From an uncultured SAR86 cluster bacterium (GTDB lineage Bacteria; Pseudomonadota; Gammaproteobacteria; Magnimaribacterales; D2472), in contig CACECP010000002.1 of NCBI GenBank assembly GCA_902558095.1, positions 62,001 through 126,000 of the forward strand: a stretch of 64,000 nt of DNA. The letters run 5' to 3'. A model generated the notes under the pieces. It was not told the origin of the DNA. It made no database searches and worked only from the letters and a program-made list of their open reading frames with translations. Positions within the stretch are counted from its first letter, which is position 1. The number at the start of each line of letters is the position of its first letter. Position numbers and translations under genes: made by a program. Positions 40,774 through 41,639 of the stretch are shown in pieces.

Positions 40774-40802
40774 TTGATACATTTTTAAGATTTTTGTATC
40801 AT
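40774..40802 (+). promoter_or_regulatory. Proteorhodopsin promoter with overlapping inverted repeat
   Basis: TTGATA (40774-40779), a 17-base spacer and TATCAT (40797-40802) form a good sigma-70-type promoter. A perfect 7-bp inverted repeat, TGATACA / TGTATCA (40775-40781 and 40795-40801), spans both elements, so it could also serve as an operator. Transcription would begin near 40809, giving a leader of about 57 bases. Confidence 0.6.
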
Positions 40803-40819
40803 ATGGACTTGTATATTAC

Positions 40820-40860
40820 GGGGGGGGAGTAATTTTTACTCCTACTTACTTATAAGGAGT
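40820..40860 (+). promoter_or_regulatory. Proteorhodopsin leader: G8 run and competing hairpins
   Basis: Eight consecutive G (40820-40827) run into GGAGTAA (40826-40832), which pairs perfectly with TTACTCC (40836-40842) around a 3-base loop. The same ACTCCT (40838-40843) is also perfectly complementary to the ribosome binding site AGGAGT (40855-40860) five bases before the ATG. The two pairings exclude each other, so the G-rich arm could free the ribosome site. This is a structural reading; regulation is not shown. Confidence 0.5.
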
Positions 40861-40865
40861 TATAT

Positions 40866-41639
40866 ATGAAATTTTTATTAACGATGGTCGGCTTACTTGC
40901 TCTTCCAGTATTTGCTGGAGAAGCTGGTACAAAAGACCTTGACGTTGGTGATATAACAGGTGTTTCATTTTGGCTTGTAACTGCTGCTATGCTTGCAGCA
41001 ACTGTTTTCTTTCTAGTTGAAAGAGACAGAGTTCATGGCAAATGGAAAACATCACTGTCAGTAGCTGCTTTAGTTACTGGTATTGCGTTCTGGCATTATC
41101 TATACATGAGAAATGTATGGGTTAATACTGGTGAATCACCAACAGTATATAGATATATTGACTGGCTAATTACTGTGCCGCTTCAAATTATTGAGTTCTA
41201 CTTAATTCTTAAAGTGTGTACTAATGTTAAATCTAGTCTATTCTGGAAATTGCTTGTTGCATCTTTAGTCATGCTTGGATTTGGTTTTGCCGGAGAAACA
41301 TATGTTTTACCAGAAGGTGTAACTGAATCATCAATGCCAATGGTATATGGTGTTATAGCAACACTGGCCTGGTTGTACATTATCTATGAAGTATTTGCTG
41401 GTGAAGCTGGCAAACTTAATGCTTCAAGTGGAAATGCTGCAGCTCAAAGCGCTTTTGGAACAATTAGATTAATTGTTACATTTGGTTGGGCTATTTATCC
41501 TATTGGATATTGGATGGCACTCCAGGGAACTGGCGACGGTTACGCAAATGCTAATATGGTTTATAACCTTGCTGATTTTCTTAACAAAATCGCATTTGGT
41601 TTAGCTATATATGTTGCAGCTGTTAGCGATTCAGAATAA
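40866..41639 (+). CDS. Proteorhodopsin, blue-absorbing proton pump type
   Basis: Retinal-binding light-driven proton pump in the inner membrane. The 257-residue protein has a cleavable signal peptide (ending about PVFAGEAG) and seven helices. The ion-path residues form the DTE pattern: D99 in YRYIDW, T103 and E110 (D97, T101, E108 in the usual numbering), plus the partner His77 in AFWHYLY. The retinal lysine is in LADFLNKIAFGL (K241). The spectral-tuning position is Gln (TVPLQIIEF, Q107; position 105 in the usual numbering), the blue-absorbing form. No retinal synthesis gene (blh, crt) is in the window. A strong promoter, AGGAGT ribosome site and terminator make it a single-gene unit. Confidence 0.97.
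   Translation: MKFLLTMVGLLALPVFAGEAGTKDLDVGDITGVSFWLVTAAMLAATVFFLVERDRVHGKWKTSLSVAALVTGIAFWHYLYMRNVWVNTGESPTVYRYIDWLITVPLQIIEFYLILKVCTNVKSSLFWKLLVASLVMLGFGFAGETYVLPEGVTESSMPMVYGVIATLAWLYIIYEVFAGEAGKLNASSGNAAAQSAFGTIRLIVTFGWAIYPIGYWMALQGTGDGYANANMVYNLADFLNKIAFGLAIYVAAVSDSE

Follow-up and report, generated by a model that had tools for sequence, protein, structure and literature searches.

A conserved G-run leader, probably a control element of proteorhodopsin, in one family of SAR86 bacteria

The window analysed here, 64 kb of a 1.09-Mb assembly whose relatives in the named collection are SAR86 cluster bacteria, carries on its forward strand a gene for proteorhodopsin (PR), a light-driven proton pump (257 aa; 40866-41639, with ATG at 40866; PF01036, E = 2.6e-44). 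The gene is preceded by a promoter, TTGATA-17-TATCAT (40774-40802), in which the -35 box TTGATA (40774-40779) and the -10 box TATCAT (40797-40802) are separated by a 17-nt spacer. Judging from the -10 box, the transcript is predicted to start with a short AU-rich 5' stretch (40807-40819), the length of which is constant and the sequence of which varies among sub-groups of genus g1. This stretch is followed by a run of eight Gs and AG (40820-40829; G8 at 40820-40827), the portion of the leader that is common to all six genera discussed below. Read directly from the sequence, the order of elements is G8, AGTAA, a TTT loop, TTACTCCT, AGGAGT and ATG. Folding and covariation delineate a hairpin, GGGAGTAA/TTT/TTACTCCT (40825-40843, with TTACTCCT at 40836-40843), and the predicted folds indicate that part of its 3' arm, ACTCCT (40838-40843), can also pair with the ribosome site AGGAGT (40855-40860), which is invariant in g1.

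The original prediction had described a G8 leader behind a clear promoter upstream of PR and considered such a run unusual in AT-rich DNA; both descriptions agree with the sequence, in which G8 occurs once in 64 kb against 0.06 expected and was seen in 6 of 100 shuffles. The count of eight is that assembled in the genome of the window, and relatives carry five to seven. The short leader hairpin has a predicted energy of -9.0 kcal/mol (z = -2.8) and was equalled by 1 of 200 shuffles, and pairing of ACTCCT with AGGAGT reaches -6.0 kcal/mol in folds from which the 5' arm was removed. Given these energies, the two pairings are predicted to be mutually exclusive, as had been proposed, with the leader hairpin being the stronger; the distance from ACTCCT to AGGAGT is 11 nt rather than the 12 claimed. 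A covariance-model search matched no Rfam family to the leader and returned sub-threshold chance matches near the terminator only. The 7-bp inverted repeat previously noted over the promoter is present in the window but does not hold as a separate element or operator, because all seven pairs occur in only 8 of 29 g1 leaders and the symmetry is explained by the overlap of the -35 and -10 boxes. One change in this repeat, from TACA/TGTA to TACC/GGTA, looks compensatory.

PR was detected in 85 of 100 relatives and in 92 of 107 family members. A run of five to eight Gs followed by A lies upstream of the gene in nearly all members of g1, g5, g6, g7 and g9 and in the single g2 genome; the run is thus not a peculiarity of one assembly but occurs in many independent SAR86 genomes. 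Its length, which the original prediction suggested could differ between cells, varies between species from 5 to 8, and GGAGGAG and GGGG occur as rare variants. No G run precedes PR in g3, g4, g8, g10 or in the SAR86 families read besides this one. Compared with shuffled sequences, the hairpin is more stable in g1, g5, g6 and one g7 type out of three; it is borderline in g2 and in another g7 type, and the remaining g7 type and g9 do no better than shuffles. Genus g9 retains the G run but has no stable hairpin. Both promoter boxes are recognizable in 28 of 29 g1 leaders, and in 27 of the 29 the -10 box and the G run are 17-18 nt apart.

Across g1, g2 and g5, the first stem is represented by 21 distinct versions, with four columns showing changes on both sides. 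These stems were compared after folding, since a MAFFT alignment of all stem types misplaced the hairpins, the loops of which differ in length. Arms from the same genome pair at 100% of positions, versus 85% (maximum 95%) for 5' and 3' arms swapped between genomes, a comparison in which the stems were taken from folds and structure is accordingly favoured. At the two columns adjoining the A, the G side is constant and the partner alternates between C and U; pairing would permit the G side to change, and its constancy therefore argues that the G run itself is constrained, beyond its part in this stem. The compensatory changes for which the original prediction proposed to look are hence found in the first stem but not in the second, where covariation is lacking because the ribosome site hardly varies. 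Moreover, the complementarity of the second stem is partly automatic, because GGAG in the 5' arm mimics the ribosome site.

The leader is found above PR in three chromosomal neighbourhoods, one on the coaD side (g1 and g5), another in g9 and g7, and a third in g6. In g9 and g7, one leader type within the same neighbourhood is shared by divergent PR coding sequences, and comparison of these sequences suggests that the coding sequence was replaced beneath a resident leader. A covariance model of the g1 leader was run against the 1.19-Mb contig of a nearly complete relative (G015), where PR was the sole significant match (77.6 bits, E = 1e-14; next match, E = 1.2); outside the genus, the model recovers the leaders of g5, g2 and, weakly, g4. 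Leaders of g6 contain a second hairpin above the G run, which varies in sequence with pairing apparently retained. The PR leaders of g8 are devoid of the G-run element and display a Fur-box-like GAGAATCATTCTCAT as well as a GGGGG ribosome site within ACTACTGGGGGTAGT, and those of SAR11 mostly carry a AGTTTATATATAAACT-type palindrome upstream of the ribosome site. Overall, conservation, covariation, complementarity and a single copy in one genome are all seen in the sequence, and the leader is a real, conserved and gene-specific element. It is probably a control element of PR, for which the controlling agent can be hypothesized.

Two usual regulators of leaders can be excluded by their absence. 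CsrA is missing from all 36 searched genomes of the family to which the leader belongs, although it was detected in controls and in SAR86 families f2 and f3, and Hfq (PF17209) was found in 0 of 60 genomes of the SAR86 order and detected in controls. We therefore rejected both a CsrA-regulated leader and a target of an Hfq-dependent small RNA. By family, csrA occurs in f2 and f3, whereas all f1 and f4 genomes searched lack it.

The predicted consequences of occupying the G run were assessed by forcing the run and the next 4 nt to remain unpaired and comparing the predicted openness of the ribosome site. With the run blocked, mean openness fell from 0.47 to 0.12 in g1, and in g2 it dropped from 0.18 to 0.01. 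Leaders of the g5 sub-group whose stems are altered started at 0.46-0.85 and reached 0.02-0.09; the remaining g5 leaders showed little change. No consistent effect was obtained for g6, g7 and g9, in which the covering arm is absent or weak. Given that pairing against the ribosome site is inconsistent in these three genera, all of which have the G run, switching is not the universal function of the leader. The on/off translation switch envisaged originally is thus predicted for g1, g2 and part of g5 but is inconsistent in the other three genera, and the original interpretation as a whole is partly supported. The exclusive stems hold as predicted energetics in part of the range rather than as a shared function. 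Furthermore, the default state predicted for g1 is roughly half-open, so that a trigger would be needed.

A candidate for such a trigger emerged from the distribution of GGGGGAG, which occurs 17 times in the genome of the window, with 14 coding and 3 non-coding sites. The latter are the PR leader, the ribosome site of the glutamate dehydrogenase gene (gdhA) and the antisense of a hairpin in the 3'UTR of the ammonium-transporter gene (amt). The amt hairpin, which is followed by a terminator, presents in its predicted loop the sequence CUCCCCC, complementary to the G run. Of 25 g1 genomes checked, 23 have a hairpin with this loop, predicted to be unpaired; versions of it with a C run exist in g2, g4 and g5, and g3 has a shorter run. 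Duplexes between the amt hairpin and the PR leader in g1 are predicted at about -18 to -25 kcal/mol, and when pairing of the G015 loop was evaluated against 1211 upstream regions of the same genome, PR ranked third. In the g5 sub-group, a matching stretch of 12-13 nt is altered on both RNAs. In g9, the seed predicted from the PR leader, CTCTCCCCC, was located in a conserved intergenic hairpin, by an aimed search that carries less weight than a blind find. The g5 and g9 cases are suggestive of matched changes in the two RNAs. The g9 hairpin with the CTCTCCCCC loop has its own promoter and, together with a second G+C-rich hairpin, precedes a small reading frame and a glutathione-peroxidase-like gene.

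Several results temper this assignment. In a swap test across five lineages, own-lineage pairing was not better overall, and 25 of 120 group permutations were as good. Two g1 genomes (G028 and G032) keep the G run upstream of PR and have no C run after amt1, and a search for non-coding CUCCCCC in these genomes and in G017 recovered none besides that of PR itself; in g4, the C-run RNA is present and the G run of PR is absent. GGGGGAG forms the gdhA ribosome site in only one of the g1 genomes read, the one containing the window, and gdhA was accordingly rejected as a conserved co-target. The C-rich RNA of the amt 3'UTR is a plausible trigger, with matched pairing left unproven by the cross-lineage swap test.

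Other G and C runs were encountered in the same genomes. The C run at pckA was rejected as a partner RNA, because it is confined to g1 and belongs to an inverted repeat that surrounds a -10 box immediately ahead of the start codon. This repeat (G015:C1, around 379336) is long and strongly conserved, has a central C6 run and ends at the start codon; from its sequence, it resembles a DNA operator surrounding a near-leaderless promoter. G runs are also associated with four probable TonB-receptor genes of G015 (C1, 857878, 860677, 1131648 and 1124339). Three of these genes use G5-G8 runs as ribosome sites, and in one more a G7 run with a hairpin lies far upstream, about 50 nt ahead of the start.

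The role of the G run itself can be read in other ways. It might act as a ribosome standby site, that is, a second Shine-Dalgarno-like sequence (GGGGG/CCUCC, with one G-U pair) at which a 30S subunit would be held before it gains access to the real site beyond the hairpin. Such a role would hold for all six genera, and it is consistent with the G5-G8 runs located at ribosome-site distance in seven G015 genes, three of them probable TonB receptors, as well as with one g9 leader in which GGAGGAG replaces GGGGGAG and complementarity to 16S rRNA is kept. However, in g1, g2 and part of g5 the true ribosome site is predicted to become closed once the run is occupied, and the use of pure G instead of GGAGG nearly everywhere would be left unexplained; we consider standby a possible but rather improbable function. 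Somewhat more doubtful is an element acting at the level of DNA or transcription, be it an operator, a signal in the initially transcribed region or slippage on the G run, with the hairpin being secondary. The G run is the most constant part of the leader, and its distance from the -10 box persists despite changes in the intervening sequence, but the covariation of the stem indicates RNA, no conserved DNA motif extends beyond G5-A, and about 10 nt of the predicted transcript precede the run.

The exclusive pairings, which are suitably arranged in g1, g2 and part of g5, could also constitute a self-contained two-state switch, a riboswitch or thermosensor operating without any trans-acting RNA, as the original prediction proposed. 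We find this unlikely, considering that the arrangement is not retained in g6, g7 and g9, that the leader has no Rfam match and that it is short for a ligand-binding core. An even less probable reading is that the hairpin merely slows mRNA decay in the manner of the ompA 5' stem-loop. Most lineages have a 5'UTR hairpin and PR is probably strongly expressed, both in keeping with this reading, but g9 has the G run without a stable hairpin, and the hairpin is predicted to lie about 15 nt from the 5' end, as placed by the predicted start site, whereas an ompA-type stem is within a few nucleotides of it. Two further candidates were dismissed, namely, an upstream open reading frame starting from the G run, which exists in g9 and part of g1 and is broken elsewhere, and pairing between the G run and the beginning of the PR coding region, where no conserved pyrimidine run beyond the required codons was found.

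Among single models, the best supported is one in which a C-rich RNA acting at the G run triggers masking of the ribosome site, and we propose it as the mechanism, with the effect on access to the ribosome site coming from folding predictions. In this model, the hairpin would hold an arm that could otherwise cover the ribosome site, leaving translation on by default. In g1, g2 and part of g5, occupation of the G run would free the arm, the ribosome site would be covered and less PR would be made. The likeliest occupant would be an RNA whose C-rich loop is exposed, for example the amt hairpin with its CUCCCCC, acting without Hfq. Production of the C-rich RNA as a separate molecule, its pairing with the leader inside the cell and the sign of the effect given above are inferences. 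Taken as a whole, the proposal that the leader exerts cis-acting post-transcriptional control of PR in one SAR86 family, triggered at its G run by a C-rich RNA, is a tentative one, which could well be wrong. A broader extension, more speculative and in our view rather unlikely, would be a G-run/C-loop code operating without Hfq and, in this family, without CsrA, in which G runs in the leaders or ribosome sites of the genes for proteorhodopsin, glutamate dehydrogenase and TonB receptors are recognized through base pairing by C-rich hairpins, including one connected with ammonium uptake, thereby linking nitrogen state to light-driven energy.

Proteorhodopsin is among the commonest genes of the surface ocean, and SAR86 bacteria are hard to grow; to our knowledge, little is known about how expression of proteorhodopsin is set. 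A conserved, single-copy and gene-specific leader offers a concrete handle for tests in laboratory hosts and for searches of ocean transcripts. If the C-rich partner is real, nitrogen supply would be tied to the use of light through a post-transcriptional network that dispenses with Hfq and CsrA.

No description of an RNA leader of proteorhodopsin was found in the literature searched, but parts of the arrangement have counterparts in known systems. As in CsrA-controlled leaders, GGA motifs lie both upstream of and at the ribosome site; unlike the hosts of such leaders, the SAR86 family lacks csrA (0 of 36 genomes searched). A ribosome standby site has been described for tisB (PMC7708055), where likewise a single-stranded stretch open to being covered precedes the ribosome site, whereas the PR leader is only about 60 nt long and has short stems only, and 30S binding to it is hypothetical. 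GlnZ, a small RNA released from the glnA 3'UTR in Enterobacteriaceae (PMC9731577), differs from the SAR86 candidate in its gene of origin and its targets, and enteric hosts have Hfq, which SAR86 does not; the two are alike in that the 3'UTR of a nitrogen gene, with a hairpin and a terminator, is the source of a regulatory RNA, a candidate one in SAR86. Finally, RNAs of Staphylococcus aureus pair through UCCC loops with G-rich ribosome sites (reviewed in PMC3861533). The G run of PR is located about 40 nt upstream of the start codon rather than at the ribosome site, and the SAR86 C-rich RNA is a 3'UTR hairpin for which pairing is predicted, but both systems oppose an unpaired C-rich loop to a G-rich mRNA leader in a setting where Hfq is of doubtful or no importance.
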